Origin: Thermococcus zilligii AN1
Lineage (GTDB): Archaea; Methanobacteriota_B; Thermococci; Thermococcales; Thermococcaceae
Length of the DNA stretch: 64,000 nt
NCBI RefSeq assembly: GCF_000258515.1
Contig: NZ_AJLF01000003.1
Coordinates: 1-64,000 of the forward strand
Direction: 5' to 3'
Shown: in pieces, positions 13,689 through 58,746 of the stretch
Numbering within the stretch: the first letter of the stretch is position 1
Layout: every line of letters begins with the position of its first letter
The notes under the pieces: model-generated
Database searches by the model: none
The model's input: the letters and a program-made list of their open reading frames with translations, nothing else
What the model was told of the DNA's origin: nothing
Made by a program: the position numbers and the translations under genes

Positions 13689-14131
13689 TCACTCCTCGGT
13701 TGAATCTTTGAGAAATTCCTCCAGTTCCTGAAACTCCTCAAGAAGATAGAATGCATTAACCCCGTAGTTTTTGGCACTTTCGACCTGGAATTTGTCGTTT
13801 GAGACTAGGGCACTCCTCCGGGAGTGAGCTACACTTATGTAAAAAGAGTCTATTGCCCGACAGCCAGTTCGAAAGGCAATTTCGAAGGAGATCTCCCCGA
13901 GTCTGCATGTATCGACTGTGTCTATCTTCTCGACGAGAAGCTCATACAGGCTCATAGCCTCATCCTCGGGCATCCTTCTGACCAGTTGGCCGATGAGTTC
14001 TACTTTGAAAATATCTGGTTCAGCTATTGGAATCTTCAGCTCCTGGATAAGTCGAAAGAGATTTTAGGCAAGTTCAGTTCTTTTTTGTCGTATTCAAACA
14101 GGGCGTCGATGAACACTGAGGTATCAATCAC
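13689..14131 (-). pseudogene. Broken VapC-type PIN toxin
   Basis: The minus strand begins GTG 14131 with VIDTSVFIDALFEYDKK, the first PIN motif. The frame breaks at an A6 run (T6 at 14081-14086 on the plus strand); the next frame reads RTELA, then TAA, then NLFRLIQELKIPIAEPDIFK and VELIGQLVRRMPEDEA. It stays open to AIDSFYISVAHSRR and LVSNDKFQVESAKNYGV, the remaining PIN motifs. One frameshift and one nonsense codon thus separate the first catalytic Asp from the rest; an ATG at 13973 would give only the C-terminal half. The antitoxin partner immediately upstream is intact. Confidence 0.8.
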
Positions 14132-14133
14132 TA

Positions 14134-14313
14134 TTATCGCCGCTCCTCCAGGAACTCTTTGAGGGCATCTTTCTCAACTTTTCTGCTGAAGTTCTCGATG
14201 ATATCTGCTATTCCCATCTCAATGATAACTTTTCCACGGATCCCTTCTTTGAATCGGACATTCTTTACGGGCTTAAAGACTCCGTTCTTGTAAACGACCT
14301 CAATCTCCTCCAT
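14134..14313 (-). CDS. AF2212-like (DUF104) antitoxin
   Basis: 59 residues from ATG 14313. [19 protein letters not shown] with [13 protein letters not shown] is the typical N-terminal beta structure of this family; a helical tail ([20 protein letters not shown]) binds the toxin. The stop lies two bases before the start of the PIN gene, the usual toxin-antitoxin arrangement. In-frame sequence further upstream exists but lacks family resemblance. The partner toxin is a pseudogene, so this antitoxin is an orphan. Confidence 0.8.
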
Positions 14314-14469
14314 ATTATCCACCGAAATATGATGGTAAAGGAAAGATATAACCTCTTCACTCCACGAACGGATTCTCGAAGCTCTAGGCGACCTCATAGA
14401 CTTCGGGCCCATATATTGTCGTAGAGAGACTTTGGTATGAACTTCAAGTTAAAATAAAAAGAAACCCCT

Positions 14470-15309: not shown

Positions 15310-16611
15310 ATGAGTCTCGACTGTTTCTTCAGGCCAAGGGCGATAGCTGTCATCGGGGCATCCAACGACCCCCTCAAGCTCGGCTACGAGGTCTTCAAGA
15401 ACCTCAGGAAATACCGGGGCGGGAAGGTCTACCCGGTCAACGTCAAGGAGGAGGAAGTCCAGGGAGTCAGGGCCTACAGGAACGTTAAGGACATCCCTGA
15501 CGAGGTCGACCTGGCAATAATAGTCGTCCCGAAGAACTTCGTAAGGGGCACCGTAGTCGACTGCGGCGAGAAGGGCGTTAAGGGGGCGGTCATTATAACC
15601 GCCGGCTTCGGCGAGGTCGGCGAGGAAGGCAAGAAAGAGGAGCGCGAGCTGGTGGAGCTCGCTCATAAGTACGGCATGAGGCTTATTGGCCCGAACTGCG
15701 TCGGCGTAATGAACACCCTCAATGACATGAACGCGACGTTCATAATGGACGCCAAGAAGGGTGACATAGCCTTCGTCAGCCAGAGCGGTGCTCTCGGAGC
15801 AGGAATAGTCTACAAGACGGTGAAGGAGGGGATTGGCTTCTCCAAGTTCGTAAGCGTCGGCAACATGGCCGACCTCGACTTCGCGGAGCTTATGGAGTAT
15901 TTAGCGGAAACAGAGGAGGACAAGGCGATAGCCCTCTACATCGAGGGCATCAGGGACGGGAGGAAGTTCATTGAGGTTGCCAAGCGCGTTACCAAGAAGA
16001 AGCCGGTCATAGCCCTCAAGGCCGGGAGGAGCGAGAGCGGCGCTAAAGCGGCTTCAAGCCATACTGGCTCTTTGGCCGGGAGCTGGAAGATTTATGAAGC
16101 GGCGTTCAAGCAGAGCGGTGTTCTTATAGCTGAGACCATAGATGAGATGCTCAGCATGGCGAGAGCCTTTACACAGCCCCTCCCCAGGGGCAGGCGCGTT
16201 GCCATAATGACCAACGCCGGTGGCCCGGGGGTTCTGACCGCTGACCAGATTGACCGGCGCGGGCTCAGGCTTGCCGAGCTCGAGGAGAAAACCATAGAGG
16301 AACTCCGCTCCTTCCTCCCGCCGATGGCGGCGGTAAAGAACCCCGTTGACATGATAGCCTCCGCGAGAGGAGAGGACTACTACAGGACAGCCCGGGCCCT
16401 GTTGCTGGACAAGAACGTTGACATGCTCATAAGCATCTGCGTTGTTCCAACGTTCGCTGGCATGACGCCAACGGAGCACGCCGAGGGGGTAATCAGGGCG
16501 GTCAGGGAGGTAAACAACGGGAAGCCCGTTCTCGGCCTCTTCATGGCAGGTTACGTCAGTGAGAAGGCCAAGGAAATCCTCGAAGCCCACCAACGAGAAG
16601 GTTGCCTTTGA
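15310..16611 (+). CDS. ADP-forming acyl-CoA synthetase alpha subunit, truncated C terminus
   Basis: 433 residues from ATG 15310 (GGTGAGG upstream, TATA TTATATA near 15270). CoA-binding domain IAVIGASNDPLKLGYEVF, the phosphohistidine region SSHTGSLAGSW (about residue 245), and TNAGGPGVLTADQIDRRGL. The alpha/beta enzyme makes ATP from acyl-CoA, ADP and phosphate; next to iorAB it would act on aryl-acetyl-CoAs. Intact members are about 455-465 residues; this one is normal up to [14 protein letters not shown] and then ends in QREGCL because the sequence jumps into the iorA gene. Roughly 25-30 C-terminal residues are lost; whether it still works is unknown. Confidence 0.85.
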   Translation: MSLDCFFRPRAIAVIGASNDPLKLGYEVFKNLRKYRGGKVYPVNVKEEEVQGVRAYRNVKDIPDEVDLAIIVVPKNFVRGTVVDCGEKGVKGAVIITAGFGEVGEEGKKEERELVELAHKYGMRLIGPNCVGVMNTLNDMNATFIMDAKKGDIAFVSQSGALGAGIVYKTVKEGIGFSKFVSVGNMADLDFAELMEYLAETEEDKAIALYIEGIRDGRKFIEVAKRVTKKKPVIALKAGRSESGAKAASSHTGSLAGSWKIYEAAFKQSGVLIAETIDEMLSMARAFTQPLPRGRRVAIMTNAGGPGVLTADQIDRRGLRLAELEEKTIEELRSFLPPMAAVKNPVDMIASARGEDYYRTARALLLDKNVDMLISICVVPTFAGMTPTEHAEGVIRAVREVNNGKPVLGLFMAGYVSEKAKEILEAHQREGCL

Positions 16612-18334
16612 GACGGCTTTGGCTGCTTCCTGGAGCGGCCTGAGGGCCATGACGGCCATGAAGCACGTGGGCCTGAACGTTGCCATGGACAGCTTCATGA
16701 CGGTAAGCTACATGGGCGTCGACGGCGGGCTGATAGTTATGGTCGCCGACGACCCGAGCATGTGGAGCAGTCAGAACGAGCAGGACACGAGGGCTATAGC
16801 CAAGACCGCCGGAATTCCAGTTTTGGAGCCTTCAAGCGTCCAGGAAGCCAAGGACATGGTCAAGTACGCCTTCGAGATAAGCGAAAAGTACAAACAGATG
16901 GTGATCCTCAGGACGACCACCAGGAGCTCCCACATGCGCGGCGAAGTCATCCTCGGAGAACTGCCCGAGGAGATAAAGCAGGCCAGGAGGAAGTTCGGGA
17001 ACTTCAAGAAGAACCCGGAGAGGTACGTCGACATACCCGCATTCCAGAAGAAGAAGCACCCCTGGTTGCTTGAAACAATTGAGAAGTTCCGCGGGGAGTT
17101 CAACGGGAGCCCCTTCAACTGGATTGAAGGCGATGAAAACGCCAAGGTCGGAATAATCGCCCCCGGCCTCAGCTACGCCTACGTTAAGGAGGCTCTGGCC
17201 TGGCTCGGCGTCGAGAACGTGAAGATACTCAAGCTCGGGACGCCCTACCCGGTTCCCTACGGCCTGCTCGAGAAGTTCTTGGAGGGGCTTGAGAGGGTAC
17301 TCATCGTTGAGGAGCTTGAGCCGGTGGTTGAGGAGCAGGTGAAGGTCTGGGCCTACGACAGGGGCTTGAAGATCCCGATCCACGGGAAAGACCTCGTGCC
17401 GAGGGTTTACGAGATGACGACGAGGGTGGCAGTTGAGGCAATGGCCAAATTCCTCGGCATGGAAACGCCGATAGACTTTGGCGAGATCGACAGGAAGTAT
17501 GAGAAAGTCCTGAAGATAGTCCCGCCGAGGCCCCCGAGCCTCTGTCCGGCGTGCCCCCACAGGAACACCTTCTTTGCCATAAGAAAGGCGGCTGGACCAA
17601 AGGCGATATTCCCGAGCGACATAGGCTGTTACACCCTCGGCGTCCTCCCGCCGCTTAAGACCGTTGACACGACCATAGCGATGGGTGGCTCGATAGGGAT
17701 GGCCCACGGCCTCAGCGTGGCAATTAACGGGAGCATGACGGAGAGTGAGCACAGGAAGGGCAAGGAAAAGCAGATCATCGTTGCCACAATAGGCGATTCA
17801 ACCTTCTACCACACAGGTCTCCCGGCCCTGGCAAATGCCATCTACAACCGCTCCAACGCGGTCATAGTAATCCTCGACAACCTCGTCACGGCAATGACGG
17901 GCGACCAGCCCAACCCGAGCACCGGCCAGACGCCGCACGGCATGGGCAAGAGGATCCCCATAGAGGACGTGGCTAAGGCCATGGGGGCCGACTTCGTCAA
18001 GGTAGTTGATCCCTACGACATAAAGGCAACTGAGGAGGCCATCAGGGAGGCCCTGGCGGTGGACGGCGTGAGCGTCGTCGTCTCGAGACAGGTGTGTGCA
18101 CTCTACAAGGTAGGCCAGATGAGAAGGAGGAACATGAAGTGGCCGATCTACCACGTCGTCGAGGACAAGTGCACCGGCTGTAAGGTCTGCATCAACGCCT
18201 ACGGCTGTCCGGCCATCTACTGGGATCCTGAGAGCAAGAAGGCAAGGGTTGACCCGACGATGTGCTGGGGCTGCGGTGGATGTGCCCAGGTATGTCCCTT
18301 TGGGGCCTTCGAGCCCGTGAAGGAGGGTGAGTGA
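16559..18334 (+). CDS. iorA: Indolepyruvate:ferredoxin oxidoreductase alpha subunit, N-terminally truncated
   Basis: The recognisable protein begins at [17 protein letters not shown] (from 16591) and runs to the two-ferredoxin end ([30 protein letters not shown]). The ThDP-binding half is clear: [19 protein letters not shown] and [10 protein letters not shown]. Intact IorA is about 645 residues; roughly 60 N-terminal residues, including the PGTPSSE segment that supplies the ThDP-activating Glu, are missing. The first in-frame GTG (16559) lies inside acdA without a ribosome binding site, giving a formal 591-residue chain. The enzyme oxidises aryl pyruvates to aryl-acetyl-CoA with ferredoxin; this copy is probably inactive. 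Confidence 0.85.
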
Positions 18335-18335
18335 G

Positions 18336-18944
18336 ATGAGGGAGTACAACGTCGTTATCACAGGTGTCGGCGGCCAGGGAATCCTGACGGCGGCGAACCT
18401 GCTCGGCTGGGCGGCCCTCCGCGCTGGCTACAAAGTCCGCGTTGGCGAGGTTCACGGCATGAGCCAGCGCTTTGGAAGCGTCATCGCCTACGTCCGCTTC
18501 GGCGAGGACGTTTACGGTGCCATGGTTCCGGAGGGGAAGGGGGATGTTATACTCTCCTTCGAGCCCGTTGAGGCTTTTAGGTACATCAACTACCTCAAGA
18601 GGGGCGGTCTGGTCTTCACGAACTCCAGGCCCATTCCGCCGGTTCAGGTCTCGATGGGGCTCGCCACCTATCCTTCCCTGGAGGAGATGAGGAAAATCAT
18701 CGAGGAGGACTTCGGTGGCAGGTTCATGGCCTTTGATGCGGAGAAGCTCGCCATGGAGGCAGGGAACATCGTTACTACCAACGTCGTCCTCATTGGGGCC
18801 CTAACCCAGACTCCGGGCTTCCCGTTATCGGCTGAGCACGTGAAAGAAGTCATCAGGGTCAGCGTCCCGCCCAAGGCCGTCGACGTGAACATGAGGGCCT
18901 TTGACCTCGGCGTTAAGGCCGCGAGGGAGATGCTGGGGCTTTGA
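18336..18944 (+). CDS. iorB: Indolepyruvate:ferredoxin oxidoreductase beta subunit
   Basis: 202 residues from ATG 18336 (AGGAGGG 8 bases upstream, overlapping the end of iorA; GTG 18327 is an alternative). Gamma-domain motifs [31 protein letters not shown] and [12 protein letters not shown] are those of IorB. It pairs with IorA and forms part of the ThDP/CoA interface. It appears complete, in contrast to iorA and acdA upstream. Confidence 0.93.
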
Positions 18945-19000
18945 TTGCCCCCCTTCCCAACATTTTTAACCCTGTATGGCGAAGTACACAAGGTGCTAAA

Positions 19001-20599
19001 ATGCCCTGGGAACCTGTTCAAAAGGTTCCGGGTGGCTTTGAGATACACTCTAAGGGTGAGTGTTCCCAGGCTTTCTACGGTGGGAATAGGTTAGTCCTTT
19101 TCGAGTGGGTGGACTACTACGTAAAATCATCCCGTGGCTTCGAGATACCCGGGTTGGACGTTAGAAAACTCGGGGACGGCTATCTCTTTAAGTTCTCAAA
19201 CTATGCGGGCATTTCCGAGGTCAGATTCAATGACGGGGGCAGCTTGCCTGTCCTTATTCTGTCAAAGAAGATAGGAAAGATGTTCAAGATTTTAGGGCCC
19301 GGGGAATGCGTGCCTCCCGATAAAGTTGGAGAGCTTGTGGGAGCTTTTGAGCACATAGCAAACACTCTGACGGAGAACATTCTGGAAATCTCTTCCAGCC
19401 TTCCCTTCTCCTTGGAGGCCCCAACCGGGTTCTCGACCGTGGAGAGCGACGAGCCGATTAACGAGCTCTTTGCCTACCACTTCCTCCGCTCGAACCGCGA
19501 AAGAATCGTCGAGGCCTTTGAGACTGTACTTCGCAGAATGAAAAGGAAGCTCGTGGTTGAAGAAGAACCGCTGAGGCCCGACGAGGTTGACGAGATAACT
19601 CCAGAAGTCCTTCTCTCAACAGTTCAGCACCCGGAATACCTGGCCCCTGCGGGAGAGGGCGTTCTGATAGCGAACTACCTGAAAGGATATGCTCCAACCA
19701 AGGTCTTGGGATACAGGAAGTACGAAAGCTTCGACACCCCAGAGAACCGCTTTGCCAAGTATTTTCTTAACTTACTCATTGAGTGGAGCGAGAGGGTTAT
19801 GGAAGCCTTCAGTGGGATGGCAAATCTGGAACCGATTAAAGAACTCCTCGGGGAGCTTGAGTTTATAGGAAGCGACGGGCTCTGGGACGACGTTGGCGAG
19901 ATGACGCTCTTCCCGTACACCTCGCAGACCCTTCTGAAGGGCGACGGCTATCGCGACCTTCTGGAACTTTACAGAGAATTCACAGCCTACGCGCCATTCT
20001 TTGAGGAACTAAGGAAGGCGATGGACAACAAAGACATCGCCAAGCTCTATGAATACTGGGCCTTCTTCAGGCTTGTGGAAGAGCTTGGAAAGATTCTTGG
20101 AAAGAAGAGACTCAGGATTCACGTTCTCCCCGCCGGAGAGCTCTCCGAGAGGGGAGACGTTTACGCTGAATTTGACAGCGGCTGGAGGCTCTACTACAAC
20201 AAGCGCCTGATCCCGGGAAGGTGGAGCTACTCGGTGGCGCTCAGACCGGATTTTTCGCTCTTTAACGGGGACCCTGAAAGAGGCGCGAAGCTCATCGGAG
20301 TTTTTGATGCCAAGTTCAAGTTTGACACGATAGATAAGTCAGAATTCGATGAGGAAACTGAAACTGCGGAAAAAACTGGGAACTACGAGACCTGGGCAAA
20401 GCTGGAGGACGTTTACAAGATGCATGCCTACAGAGATGCCTTAGGGTGCAGGTTTGCGGTCGTGGTTTATCCCGGGGAGAGGAGTGTGTTTTTTGACGTG
20501 AAGGGGAGCAAGGTTGAAAGATTTGACTTAGAAGACGTTTTGACCGGAGAACTGAATGGCGTTGGCTATTTGAGGTTTGTTCCGGAGGTGAGAAAATGA
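19001..20599 (+). CDS. McrC-like DUF2357/PD-(D/E)XK nuclease
   Basis: 532 residues from ATG 19001 (AAGGTG upstream, TATA-like TTTTTAAC near 18964). The N-terminal 200 residues resemble the DUF2357 module. The C-terminal half has YEYWAFFRLVEELGK, RPDFSLFNGD (about residue 415), FDAKFKFD (about 434) and KMHAYRDAL, the D...D-x-K layout of McrC-type endonucleases. Coupled to the next gene by an ATGA overlap, as McrB and McrC homologues are. Predicted to cut foreign or modified DNA when driven by the AAA+ partner. The order is nuclease first, the reverse of E. coli mcrBC. Confidence 0.75.
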   Translation: MPWEPVQKVPGGFEIHSKGECSQAFYGGNRLVLFEWVDYYVKSSRGFEIPGLDVRKLGDGYLFKFSNYAGISEVRFNDGGSLPVLILSKKIGKMFKILGPGECVPPDKVGELVGAFEHIANTLTENILEISSSLPFSLEAPTGFSTVESDEPINELFAYHFLRSNRERIVEAFETVLRRMKRKLVVEEEPLRPDEVDEITPEVLLSTVQHPEYLAPAGEGVLIANYLKGYAPTKVLGYRKYESFDTPENRFAKYFLNLLIEWSERVMEAFSGMANLEPIKELLGELEFIGSDGLWDDVGEMTLFPYTSQTLLKGDGYRDLLELYREFTAYAPFFEELRKAMDNKDIAKLYEYWAFFRLVEELGKILGKKRLRIHVLPAGELSERGDVYAEFDSGWRLYYNKRLIPGRWSYSVALRPDFSLFNGDPERGAKLIGVFDAKFKFDTIDKSEFDEETETAEKTGNYETWAKLEDVYKMHAYRDALGCRFAVVVYPGERSVFFDVKGSKVERFDLEDVLTGELNGVGYLRFVPEVRK

Positions 20600-22425
20600 T
20601 CGGGGAAGCTGAGCTTAGAGAATTAATTAGGGAGTACTGCCATACAGAACTCAAAAGGGCGAAGGATGAATTGGTTGGCAGGAGTGTTCAGTTCAGGAAG
20701 ACCCTCAGCGAAATTAAGAACACAGGCAATTATGAGCTTCTAAGAGATGCCCTCCGCTATCTGTATTCTGGTAAGTATGCCCTTAAGTATTTCTTTAAAA
20801 CAACAGCAGACTTGGAGATTCTCTGGGAGAATTTCCTTAAGGAGGTTGTGGAAACCCCTCCGGAGGAACTTTTAGAGAACATTGACGAACGCTTTGAAAG
20901 GTGGAGACAGATAAACGGAGCAGGAAGAGGCATTATTTCTGAATCACTGGCTTTTTATTATCCCGACTATTTTGTTCCCTGGAACAACACGGTTAACTGG
21001 TACTTTCGGGAACTGGGGTGGGGAAGGCCAACTAAATATTCAGAAGTTCTCTCTCGATTTAGAAAATTGAAAAGGCTATTCAAAGAAGAATGTGCCAATC
21101 AGGACATTAACTTTGTTCTTGTAGATTACTTTGGCTGGTGGCTCAGAAACAGAAGAAACAACAGCAGTAAGGGTAAGAACAGAAAAAACAACAGCAGTAA
21201 CAGAAAAACTCATGATAGTGATACAACGGTCACTAAGTTGGGCGAGTATCTTGCCTCAAAAGGCTATCTCTACCCCTCATACCTAGTCGCCCAGTTTTAC
21301 ACCGCCCTCAAAACCAAGGGCTTCGTCATACTCTCGGGCCTCACGGGGACAGGAAAGACAAAGATCGCCCAGGAACTCGCGGAGTTATTGGACGATTCCG
21401 GGAAAAACTTCCTCTTCCTCTCCGTCCGTCCGGACTGGCGCGATTCCAAAGCTCTACTTGGCTACTATAACCCGCTAACCGGAGAATACCACAGGACTGA
21501 ACTCCTTGAGTTTATCTTAGAAGCCAAGGAGTACTATGAGCAGAAGCGGAGGAATGCAAGGCCCTATTTCGTCCTCCTCGATGAGATGAACCTGGCCCAC
21601 GTCGAGTACTACTTTGCAGATTTCCTGAGCGTCCTTGAGAGCGGCAGGGACGAAGAAGGATTCACGAGGGAACCGCTTAGGCTCCACGACGTGGACAAGG
21701 TTGAGGAGGAAGGGATTCCCAAAGAAATCTACCTCCCGCCGAACCTCTATATCATCGGAACGGTCAACATGGACGAGACCACCTACGCCTTCAGCCCGAA
21801 AGTCCTTGACAGGGCCTTTGTGGTGGAGTTCCACGATGTTGACCTTGAAAAGTACCCTCCAGAAACCTATGAACCTGCCTCAGAAGCCATAGAAAGCCTT
21901 AAACAAACGGTCCTTCGAGACTTAAAAGGGCCTGACAAAAAGTTCCTTGCCCGCTCAAAGGACGAGCTAAACGAAGCTGTAAGGGAATTAAAGGACGAGC
22001 ACCCGGACTACTGGAAGACCCTGGTAACCCTCAACAAAGCCCTTGAACCCTACGACATGCACTTCGGCTACCGTGTCGTTGACGAGGTTGCACTCTTCTT
22101 CAAGAGCGCAAAGGAAAGTAAGGAGGCTGGCATTGTTGAATTCGAGAACTATGATGAAATCTTTGACCTTGCCATACTCATGAAAGTCCTGCCCAAGTTC
22201 CACGGCAACAGGAAGAAGCTTGAAAACCCCCTTAAGGAGGCGTTAAAGCTCTGCCTCGTGGAGGGCTCAGGCCTCAACGTTGACGAGCTTAGAAGTGCGG
22301 ATATCGTCAAAATACTGGAGGAATGGGAAAACCAGAAAACAAACTTCCGCTTCAAGCACACCTCTAAGAAAGTCCTCCGCATGCTCAGGCAGCTCCATGA
22401 AATAGGCTTCGCGAGCTTCAGCTGA
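20596..22425 (+). CDS. McrB-like AAA+ NTPase with unusual N-terminal domain
   Basis: 609 residues. AAA+ core: Walker A GLTGTGKT (about residue 248), Walker B FVLLDEMN (about 325), then YIIGTVNMDETTYAFSPKVL and LDRAFVVEF, as in McrB. The N-terminal 185 residues carry SESLAFYYPDYFVPWNNTV and DYFGWWLRNRRNN and are joined to the motor by a low-complexity Asn/Ser/Lys linker at about 186-212. I do not recognise this module as a YTH or EVE fold; in McrB proteins this position reads the DNA mark. Predicted motor and specificity subunit for the upstream nuclease. Confidence 0.82.
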   Translation: MIGEAELRELIREYCHTELKRAKDELVGRSVQFRKTLSEIKNTGNYELLRDALRYLYSGKYALKYFFKTTADLEILWENFLKEVVETPPEELLENIDERFERWRQINGAGRGIISESLAFYYPDYFVPWNNTVNWYFRELGWGRPTKYSEVLSRFRKLKRLFKEECANQDINFVLVDYFGWWLRNRRNNSSKGKNRKNNSSNRKTHDSDTTVTKLGEYLASKGYLYPSYLVAQFYTALKTKGFVILSGLTGTGKTKIAQELAELLDDSGKNFLFLSVRPDWRDSKALLGYYNPLTGEYHRTELLEFILEAKEYYEQKRRNARPYFVLLDEMNLAHVEYYFADFLSVLESGRDEEGFTREPLRLHDVDKVEEEGIPKEIYLPPNLYIIGTVNMDETTYAFSPKVLDRAFVVEFHDVDLEKYPPETYEPASEAIESLKQTVLRDLKGPDKKFLARSKDELNEAVRELKDEHPDYWKTLVTLNKALEPYDMHFGYRVVDEVALFFKSAKESKEAGIVEFENYDEIFDLAILMKVLPKFHGNRKKLENPLKEALKLCLVEGSGLNVDELRSADIVKILEEWENQKTNFRFKHTSKKVLRMLRQLHEIGFASFS

Positions 22426-48106: not shown

Positions 48107-51100
48107 TCAGGCCTTCTTCAGCGGAAGGCTCTCCCTGATCTTCCTCAGGAGTTCCTCCTTCTTGGGCGAGTCCGCGAGCGCTATCTCGAGTACCTCGTCA
48201 ATGGTCTCCACGGGCATTATCCTTATTTTCGCCGCCCTGTCCGGGCTGAGGAAGACGTCCTTCTCGTTGGATTTCGGTATTATGACCGTCTTTATGCCCG
48301 CTTCGATGGCCGCTTCGATCTTGGGTGTGGCACCGCCTATTGGCAGAACCTCGCCGCGGACGCTGAGGGAGCCCGTCATGGCCACGTCCTGTCTTATCGG
48401 TATCTCCTCCAGGGCAGAGATGACGGCTGTGGCAACGCTTATGCTGGCTGAATCGCCCTCAACCCCCTCGTAGGTCTGGAGGAACTGGACGTGGATGTCG
48501 TACTGGCTTATGTCCTCCCCCTTGTAGCGCTTGATTATTGCCGAAACGTTCTGCACGGCCTCCTTGGCTATCTCGCCCAGCTTTCCGGTGACGATTATCT
48601 TCCCCTCTTCCTTGCTGGCGGCGGGGGCAACGACGGCTTCAATCGGAAGCACTATGCCGCTCTGCTCCCCTATCACGGCCAGACCGTTGACCCTACCGAT
48701 CTCGCCGCCTTCGGTCTTTATGACCTGATACTCCTTCTTGTTCTCTATGTACCAGTCGGCGAGCTGCTTTTCAAGGGGTTTGGCTATTTTCATTGCCTCC
48801 AGCACGTCTTCCCTGTCAACGTACTTTTTACCCTTCTTGATGGCTATGTCTCCAGCGGCCCTTACTATTCCGCCGAGATCCCTGAGGCGGAGCGTGAGGT
48901 GGCCCTTCCTTCCTGCCCTCTTCTGGGCCTCTCTAACTATCTCCTCGACTGCATCGCGGGTGAAGTGGGGGATTTTGCCATCGCGCTTTACCTCCTGAGC
49001 TACGAACTGGACGAGCTTTCTCCTGTTTTCTGGGGTGTCCGGCATTGTCGTTCTCATGTAGACCTCGTAACCGTAGCCCCTGATGCGGGAGCGCAAAGCG
49101 GGATGCATCTTATCAACCGTATCCAGGTTTCCGGCGGCTACAAGTATGAAATCACAGGGCACTGGCTCCGTTCTCACCATCGCACCGCTTGAGAGCTCGC
49201 TCTGGCCGGTTATCGGGAACTTCTTCTCCTGCATGGCCGTGAGAAGGCTCTGCTGCATCTTCAGGCTTAGCGTTGCAATCTCGTCTATGAAGAGGACGCC
49301 CTTGTGGGCGCGGTGGATCATTCCGGGCTCAACGCGCTCATGGGCTGGCGTGCCGAGCCCGCCCGAGTTCTTGACGAAGAGGCCGTTGGCGAGCAGGTTG
49401 CCCTCCTCTGTGGTGAGGTTGTAGGTTACCTCAACTTCTTCCCAGGTCTCTATGAAGGCCCTTCTCTCGCCTTTTAGTATCTTCTCGAGCCTCTCTGCTC
49501 CCCCTCCCGCTTCCTCGAGGGCCTTCTTGACATCCTCAAGGAGTTTTGCCCTCCTTGTCGGCGAGAGAGTCATGGGCACAAATTCGAGGAGGTTCAAGAG
49601 GCTGTCTACCGATTGGGAAAGGACTAATCCGACTCTGTGCTCCTCGGTAGCTTTATCAACCCTGACCTCTGCCTCGATGCCGAAGATGCCGAGGTACCAT
49701 GCGAGCTCCTGGAAGAAGGGCAGCTCCTTTTCGGGTTCATCCGTCGGCCGGGCAACCTCAAGGGTTCCGTTGAACTTTGTGCCCTCCCGGGTGAAGAACA
49801 CGCTACCGTCCCCGCTGTAAAGGCCGTCGAAGAAGGCTAAGAATAGCGAGGGCTTGAGCCGGATCCACCACGGGAGTTCCGGCTTTATCTCTTTTCCGAC
49901 GGGGCCCCCTAAAGCCACGAAGAAACTGATTATCCTCCTGTCCCGGGTCCGGAAGAGTATGCTCCCCCCTGCCCTCCGGTTTTCTTTGATTTCGTAGTTG
50001 AACTCGCCGAAGAGCTCTTTGAGTGTTTCGGCGAACCTTTCAACCGCTTCCCTTTCGCTGGAGGCGAAGCTTAAAGTTCTGAGGTTCCCGTCTATGTTGC
50101 CGCCCCTAAACAGGGCGCCGAGGAGGAGTGCGGCCTTCTCAAGCCTCTCATCCTCGCTCGTGAGCGGGAGCAGGTTGGGGGCTTTAAGTTCTTCGATCAT
50201 CTTCAGAGACTTCGGCGTTGCCCCCTTCCCCAACCGGTTGGGGTACCCCCTGAGCTTTTCCTCCCCGTCGTAGGTTCTCGCTATCGCGAACTCGTCGAGA
50301 ACATTAACCGGAACCCTGATGGGCCCGTCTTTTACTGTTATATCGCCGGCCTCTTTGAGGCCCCCAGCTGTGTAAACCTTGTGCTCCGGTGTCAGCGCGA
50401 ACCAGTAGTCCCTCTCCAGGTTCACCACGCGCCTCAACTTCTGCCTTCCGAGCCTCTTGTTGGCGTAGAGGAGCTTCGTAAAGCCTTCCTTAGTGAGGAT
50501 CTCGACGTTTTTGTCCCTGAAGTCATGGTAAATGACCTTAATTTCCCCGTCCATTCCCTCGCCGGAGGGGGTTTTTAGGGCCTCCTCCACGAAGTCTTCG
50601 AGCTTGAGGGCCTTTATTTTGCCGTCTTCCCTGACGATGACACTCTCTTTTCCGCTAAAGCACTGAAACGGGTCGTGCCTCACATCTCCGAGCAGGGCTC
50701 CGGCGTGTGCCCCGGTTGCATCGACGAAGGGGGCTTTTGTCCTTCCGCAGTTATCAACGAGGAGCTTGGGAACGAGGACGCTGGTCCTCATCCTCATGTT
50801 GGAGAGAACCATCATGGTGAGGATTATTACGAAGAGGCCCATCAGGAAGTTCGTGGTGCTGTAGTCTATGAGAATCGCCATCATGACCATGAAAACTACG
50901 GCCATTAGAAGGTAGGACTTTATGTTCTCCTGGCTTCTGGCCTTCTCGCGGTAGTGCTCGACTATTCTCCTCCCCTGGCAGGCGGGAACGGTCTTTATCC
51001 TCGGCATGTTCTCGTCTTCAGGGTTCGGGAAGACGAGGATATCCTCCAGGTTCTCCGTTGGCAATAGCTCAGCCATGGCTTGCCCGAGCATGGACTTCCC

Positions 51101-57363: not shown

Positions 57364-57411
57364 GCCCTCCGATAAGCTATTATTTACCCCAAAAGTGGTG
57401 GAGGTGGGAAA

Positions 57412-58746
57412 ATGCCCGAGAGGTTTGACGAGATATACGACTACTACGTGGACAAGGGCTACGAGCCGAACAAGAAGAGGGACATAATAGCCGTTTTCCG
57501 CATTACTCCGGCTGAGGGCTACACGATCGAGCAAGCAGCTGGTGGAGTTGCCGCTGAGAGCTCAACCGGGACCTGGACGACCCTCTATCCCTGGTACGAG
57601 GAGGAGCGCTGGTCTGACCTTTCGGCCAAGGCCTACGACTTCGTGGACATGAAGGATGGAAGCTGGATAGTCAGGATTGCATACCCGTTCCACGCCTTCG
57701 AGGAGGCAAACCTGCCAGGACTGCTCGCGAGCATAGCTGGCAACGTTTTTGGCATGAAGCGCGTCAAAGGGTTAAGGCTCGAGGACCTTTACCTCCCGGA
57801 GAAGGTCATAAGGGAGTTCAGAGGCCCTGCCTTCGGTATCGAGGGAGTACGGAGGATGCTTGAGATAAAGGACAGGCCCATCTACGGCGTTGTTCCAAAG
57901 CCAAAGGTCGGCTATTCGCCTGAGGAGTTCGAGAAGCTCGCCACGGAACTCCTCATGAACGGTGCAGACTACATGAAGGACGACGAGAACCTCACCAGCC
58001 CGTGGTACAACCTCTTTGACGAGAGGGCCGAGATAATGGCGGGGATCATAGAGAAGGTCGAGAACGAGACCGGAGAAAAGAAGACGTGGTTCGCCAACAT
58101 AACGGCACCGCTTCTTGAAATGGAGCGCAGGCTTGAGGTCCTCTCCGAACTCGGGCTCAAGCATGCAATGGTGGATGTCGTCATTACCGGCTGGGGTGCC
58201 CTTGAATACATAACCGAGCTTGCAGCTGACTACGGCCTGGCTGTCCATGGCCACAGGGCGATGCATGCCGCTTTCACGAGGAACCCCTACCACGGCATCT
58301 CGATGTTCGTTTTGGCCAAGCTCTACAGGCTCGTTGGCGTGGACCAGCTCCACGTAGGAACAGCTGGAGCGGGCAAGCTTGAGGGCGGCAGGTGGGACGT
58401 CATCCAGAACGCCAGGGTACTAAAGGAGGAGCACTACAGGCCGGATGAGAACGACGTCTTCCACCTGGAGCAGAAGTTCTACGGTATAAGGCCTGCCTTC
58501 CCGACGAGCTCCGGAGGGCTTCACCCGGGCAACCTCGAGCCGGTTATAGAGGCCTTAGGAAAGGACATAGTTCTACAGCTCGGCGGTGGAACCCTGGGCC
58601 ACCCCGATGGGCCTGCCGCAGGGGCCAGAGCCGTCAGACAGGCCATAGACGCCATAATGCAGGGGATACCGCTTGATGAATACGCTAAAACTCACAAAGA
58701 GCTCGCCAGGGCCCTGGAGAAGTGGGGCCACGTTACCCCCGTTTGA
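57412..58746 (+). CDS. rbcL: Ribulose-1,5-bisphosphate carboxylase, type III
   Basis: 444 residues. TTLYPWYEEERW, catalytic Lys in GVVPKPKVGYSPEEF, the carbamylated Lys in GADYMKDDENLTSPW (about residue 187), LAVHGHRAMHAAFTRNPYHG, HVGTAGAGKLEGG and SSGGLHPGNLEPV, LGGGTLGHPDGPAAGARA are all intact. In Thermococcales it works with AMP phosphorylase and ribose-1,5-bisphosphate isomerase to turn nucleoside ribose into 3-phosphoglycerate. Strong GGAGGTG site; own promoter. Confidence 0.98.
   Translation: MPERFDEIYDYYVDKGYEPNKKRDIIAVFRITPAEGYTIEQAAGGVAAESSTGTWTTLYPWYEEERWSDLSAKAYDFVDMKDGSWIVRIAYPFHAFEEANLPGLLASIAGNVFGMKRVKGLRLEDLYLPEKVIREFRGPAFGIEGVRRMLEIKDRPIYGVVPKPKVGYSPEEFEKLATELLMNGADYMKDDENLTSPWYNLFDERAEIMAGIIEKVENETGEKKTWFANITAPLLEMERRLEVLSELGLKHAMVDVVITGWGALEYITELAADYGLAVHGHRAMHAAFTRNPYHGISMFVLAKLYRLVGVDQLHVGTAGAGKLEGGRWDVIQNARVLKEEHYRPDENDVFHLEQKFYGIRPAFPTSSGGLHPGNLEPVIEALGKDIVLQLGGGTLGHPDGPAAGARAVRQAIDAIMQGIPLDEYAKTHKELARALEKWGHVTPV

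Follow-up and report, generated by a model that had tools for sequence, protein, structure and literature searches.

A probable deletion joining acdA to iorA in the aromatic amino-acid catabolic operon of Thermococcus zilligii AN1

The acdA-iorA border in relatives

In Pyrococcus furiosus, the gene for the alpha subunit of ACS2 (PF0532) lies in one operon with the indolepyruvate oxidoreductase (IOR) genes and is up-regulated on peptides; the substrate ranges of ACS4 and ACS5, aromatic or broad, overlap with that of ACS2 (PMC3942289). The same gene families in the same order, acdA-II, iorA and iorB, are present in the window, the 64,000-nucleotide stretch of Thermococcus zilligii AN1 analysed here (NZ_AJLF01000003.1, positions 1 to 64,000, forward strand). 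Their products are 93% (AcdA), 91% (IorA) and 93% (IorB) identical to those of the closest relative, genome G036. In every Thermococcales operon of this kind that was examined the border between acdA and iorA is complete, whereas in the present genome it is deleted.

The border was compared in 34 distinct relatives in which acdA and iorA can both be read at one place, and it is complete in all of them. iorA was also surveyed in 61 Thermococcus genomes. A full-length primary iorA (positions 2–595 of profile TIGR03336) is found in 54 of these; the exceptions are the present genome, G009, whose copy is interrupted by a mid-gene frameshift, and incomplete assemblies. Only in the present genome is the iorA amino-terminus lost away from a contig end. 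Neither the border comparison nor the survey contains a relative that naturally lacks the carboxy-terminus of AcdA or the amino-terminus of IorA. The frameshift in G009 (a single-contig Thermococcus genome; locus L009) is located around residue 277 of iorA and is an independent event.

Two truncated genes and their junction

acdA, which encodes an aryl/acetyl-CoA synthetase alpha subunit of the ACS2/ACD-II type and is orthologous to PF0532 and PH0766, occupies positions 15313–16587 of the forward strand. It follows its normal frame from 15313 through codon 425 (GAA GCC, with GCC at 16585–16587), after which the frame runs out of register through iorA sequence (16588–16611, forward strand), adding seven codons, HQREGCL, before a stop at 16611. 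Intact AcdA of relatives continues for about 32 residues past the break (NGIPSYERPEDVAAGAYAL...), the loss being 31–33 residues with respect to most of them. The match to TIGR02717 scores 533 bits, below the curated cut-off of 567, and covers positions 2–424 of 447; the protein is not full length. The structure of the P. horikoshii orthologue (PDB code 2csu, 457 amino acids) can be aligned only as far as residue 425; the end of the final subdomain is missing.

From 16587 or 16588 onwards the sequence is that of iorA, in a frame different from that of acdA. The iorA remnant (16589–18334, forward strand) begins with the codon ACC, for the threonine of TNEK, at 16589, is coding to 18331 without an internal stop and ends with the stop codon at 18332–18334. 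It lacks its first 66 codons and the native start; IorA of relatives begins 66 residues earlier (MAKVTDIVLWDKPGERVLLLGNQAIARGALEGNIAVFAAYPGTPSSELTDTM...). The remnant passes the cut-off of the indolepyruvate ferredoxin oxidoreductase alpha profile TIGR03336 (817 bits, cut-off 651), with a match from position 53 to 595 of 595. The missing part, profile positions 1–52, is where the ThDP-binding domain begins and includes the YPGTPSSE loop. iorB, downstream at 18336–18944 of the forward strand, is intact: it matches TIGR03334 over its full length (1–189 of 189; 303 bits, cut-off 206) and is also over the cut-off for NF005326. The original prediction of a deletion scar that fuses acdA to iorA in another frame, breaks both genes and leaves iorB intact agrees with these results. 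The expected losses of 25–30 residues from ACD and about 60 from IorA were, however, set too low.

The junction lies at 16587–16588, within GAAGCCCACCAACGAG. The sequence is derived from acdA up to 16587 and from iorA from 16587 onwards; the overlap with either parent sequence is 0–1 nucleotide, whichever relative is taken as proxy, and an origin from a repeat or long microhomology was therefore rejected. A CCAACG hexamer common to both ends in relatives does not explain the observed join either. DNA of G036 matches both flanks up to the join and has 909 bp between them, which amounts to a net loss of 904–906 bp. Across relatives the corresponding distance is 294–342 bp in those without an insert and 889–904 bp in those with a small open reading frame and a gene for a PIN-domain protein between acdA and iorA. 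The 250–300 bp first named for the missing segment therefore needs correction: it is near the size in relatives without this module, whereas the closest relative has roughly 904 bp, including a vapBC pair. The missing segment was sought across the rest of the genome (G000), other contigs included, and was not found; the idea that it sits on another contig was rejected on this ground.

The ThDP-activating glutamate had been thought lost together with the PGTPSSE motif, which is probably wrong. Alignments with KorA and with pyruvate:ferredoxin oxidoreductase (PFOR) of D. africanus, for which the fragment used was confirmed as that of 1b0p/1kek, place the equivalent of PFOR Glu64 on one of the two glutamates of NEKVAFE, both of which are retained, while the lost PGTPSSE motif aligns with PFOR Thr31. 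We take Glu64 to be the ThDP-activating residue of PFOR; a literature search on the roles of Glu64 and Thr31 gave no account of them, its one match concerning a different enzyme. The activating glutamate thus probably lies just downstream of the junction, in the STNEKVAFE segment.

A VapBC-like pair in the spacer

The acdA-iorA spacer holds a complete VapBC-like pair in nine of the 34 relatives (loci L002, L004, L008, L019, L020, L024, L027, L028 and L029), tightly packed between the two genes. In one other (L012) vapC is internally shortened, in four (L003/L046, L010, L017 and L018) a vapB remnant is left with or without a vapC tail, and in the remaining 20 the pair is absent. The predicted toxin of the G036 spacer has a PIN domain (PF01850, E = 1e-12); the open reading frame upstream of it is conserved and small, of about 53 amino acids or more, and matches no Pfam family. 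In G036 the acdA stop codon is directly followed by an ATG, and the vapC stop codon directly by the ATG of iorA, a tight packing which suggests that acdA, vapBC and iorA form one operon.

Because the pair is complete, shortened or a remnant among relatives, deletions recur at this spacer, and those in other genomes are independent deletions at the same spot. The frequent presence of a predicted VapBC-like pair in the spacer is a new observation, and the comparison shows its repeated decay within an aromatic amino-acid catabolic operon. The chromosomal spot is the same here, but the deletions are partial in five relatives, while in the present genome the entire spacer is lost and the deletion extends into both flanking genes. 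Tentatively, the spacer may be a long-standing home of a putative toxin-antitoxin pair, the recurrent removal of which overshot in this case and cost the flanking catabolic genes.

The lost DNA probably measured about 900 bp, the VapBC-type pair included (at a minimum, about 300 bp), since the spacer often holds such a pair and it is complete in the closest relative. The ancestor probably carried the pair as well, because it is complete in G036 and in its relative G002 and present as a remnant in G027; the deleted piece would therefore have been about 0.9 kb long. The present genome contains no close copy of the spacer vapC, the best match being 36%. A second VapBC-like locus lies at 13689–14412 of the reverse strand, with an antitoxin-like open reading frame starting at 14412 and a PIN-domain toxin; the toxin frame is broken, with one TGA and one TAA on read-through, and has apparently decayed.

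Origin of the join, remaining isoenzymes and the surrounding contig

The join is best explained by one recent deletion, non-homologous in kind, that struck the acdA-iorA-iorB operon in the present Thermococcus lineage; we consider this probable. With breakpoints at acdA codon 425 and around iorA codon 66 that share essentially no sequence, it would have taken away the end of acdA together with the start of iorA and, between them, the spacer, which probably included the VapBC-type pair (about 0.9 kb; at least about 0.3 kb). Both gene products would then be dead, AcdA being without the end of its final subdomain and IorA without the first part of its ThDP domain and its start site. In kind this is ordinary gene loss, a deletion yielding two pseudogenes; the blunt join, the change of frame and the two truncated genes are as in pseudogene formation by illegitimate (non-homologous) deletion, and no difference is evident.

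Alternatively, the chromosome may be complete and the join an artefact of assembly or culture, the segment having been dropped by mis-assembly, gap closure or a chimeric read. That the join is found in one genome only, and that acdA and iorA still keep their conserved residues, would fit such an origin. It is nevertheless improbable: the junction offers no overlap that an assembler could have used, the spacer has no repeats elsewhere in the genome, the neighbourhood has no comparable damage, and the join is in mid-contig in a genome (1.76 Mb, five contigs) that is 99.9% complete. Neither a repeat nor an overlap of k-mer length would account for a false join, because the join is inside a 104-kb contig (contig 3) and has 0–1 nucleotide of overlap. 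A comparison with G036 over these 104 kb matched 79 G036 open reading frames, some of them spurious. A poor assembly with many frameshifts was rejected, as the breaks inspected proved to be spurious reading frames, wrongly set starts or the in-frame LonB intein. The blunt mid-contig join and the lack of other convincing gene breaks over the 104 kb thus favour a real deletion, present in the DNA of the cell.

Highly improbable, in our estimate, is that the shortened proteins function, as a tail-less ACD and an IorA restarted at GTG 16559 or at a downstream ATG. Both frames are open and conserved, the in-frame GTG would give an IorA of 591 amino acids, and the likely ThDP glutamate is retained. 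Yet no relative lacks either end, the 66 lost residues comprise the first part of the ThDP domain with the YPGTPSSE loop, and the GTG, which is internal to acdA but in a different frame, lacks the native leader.

As to the age of the deletion, when relative rates are compared across 30 genes of the neighbourhood, acdA ranks second, iorA third and iorB sixth in excess nonsynonymous change on the present branch, with ratios of 2.15 for acdA and 1.78 for iorA (median 1.24). The branch is faster in most neighbouring genes: 346 amino-acid changes are private to it, and 111 to G036. The ranks suggest relaxed constraint on acdA and iorA, as a weak sign. Long-standing decay as pseudogenes was considered and is not demonstrated: the rate ranks are high, yet unique changes at genus-invariant positions (three in iorA, two in acdA) are not above those of functional copies. 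Because the frames are open and these changes are no more numerous than in functional copies, the loss would be recent. The earlier expectation that the event is either recent or an artefact is supported.

Indolepyruvate oxidation and the associated aryl-acid ATP synthesis had been predicted to be lost, which is too strong. A search of the genome found a second, intact IorA (C1:862645-864555; 47% identical) and a second, intact IorB (C2:66993-67574; 41% identical), together with four further ACD alpha genes, also intact; since these remain, the loss does not follow. A suspected stop codon in the second iorB was dismissed, the TGA being its normal stop. A second, more distant iorA is carried by nearly all of the 61 Thermococcus genomes. 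Some of the lost activity is probably supplied by IorA2/IorB2 and the remaining ACD alpha subunits. If real, the deletion makes this strain a natural mutant disrupted in both ACS2 alpha and IOR1, which could reveal to what extent IorA2/IorB2 and the other ACD isoenzymes can sustain the fermentation of aromatic amino acids.

Three other features of the contig were noted. Directly behind iorB, at 18941–22425 of the forward strand, a gene for a DUF2357/PD-(D/E)XK nuclease and one for an AAA ATPase form a McrBC-like pair, absent at the syntenic place in G036 and likely a defence insertion. At about 49367–50662 of the reverse strand, the archaeal Lon protease gene contains an intein-like in-frame insertion of about 432 codons, which is absent in G036; LonB inteins are known in Thermococcales. 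The RuBisCO large-subunit gene (about 57400–58740) is syntenic to G036:C1:1261635-1262984, and 67 of the amino acids encoded by its 445 codons are private; its divergence from G036 and two outgroups is far above that of any neighbour, and replacement by a foreign copy is possible.
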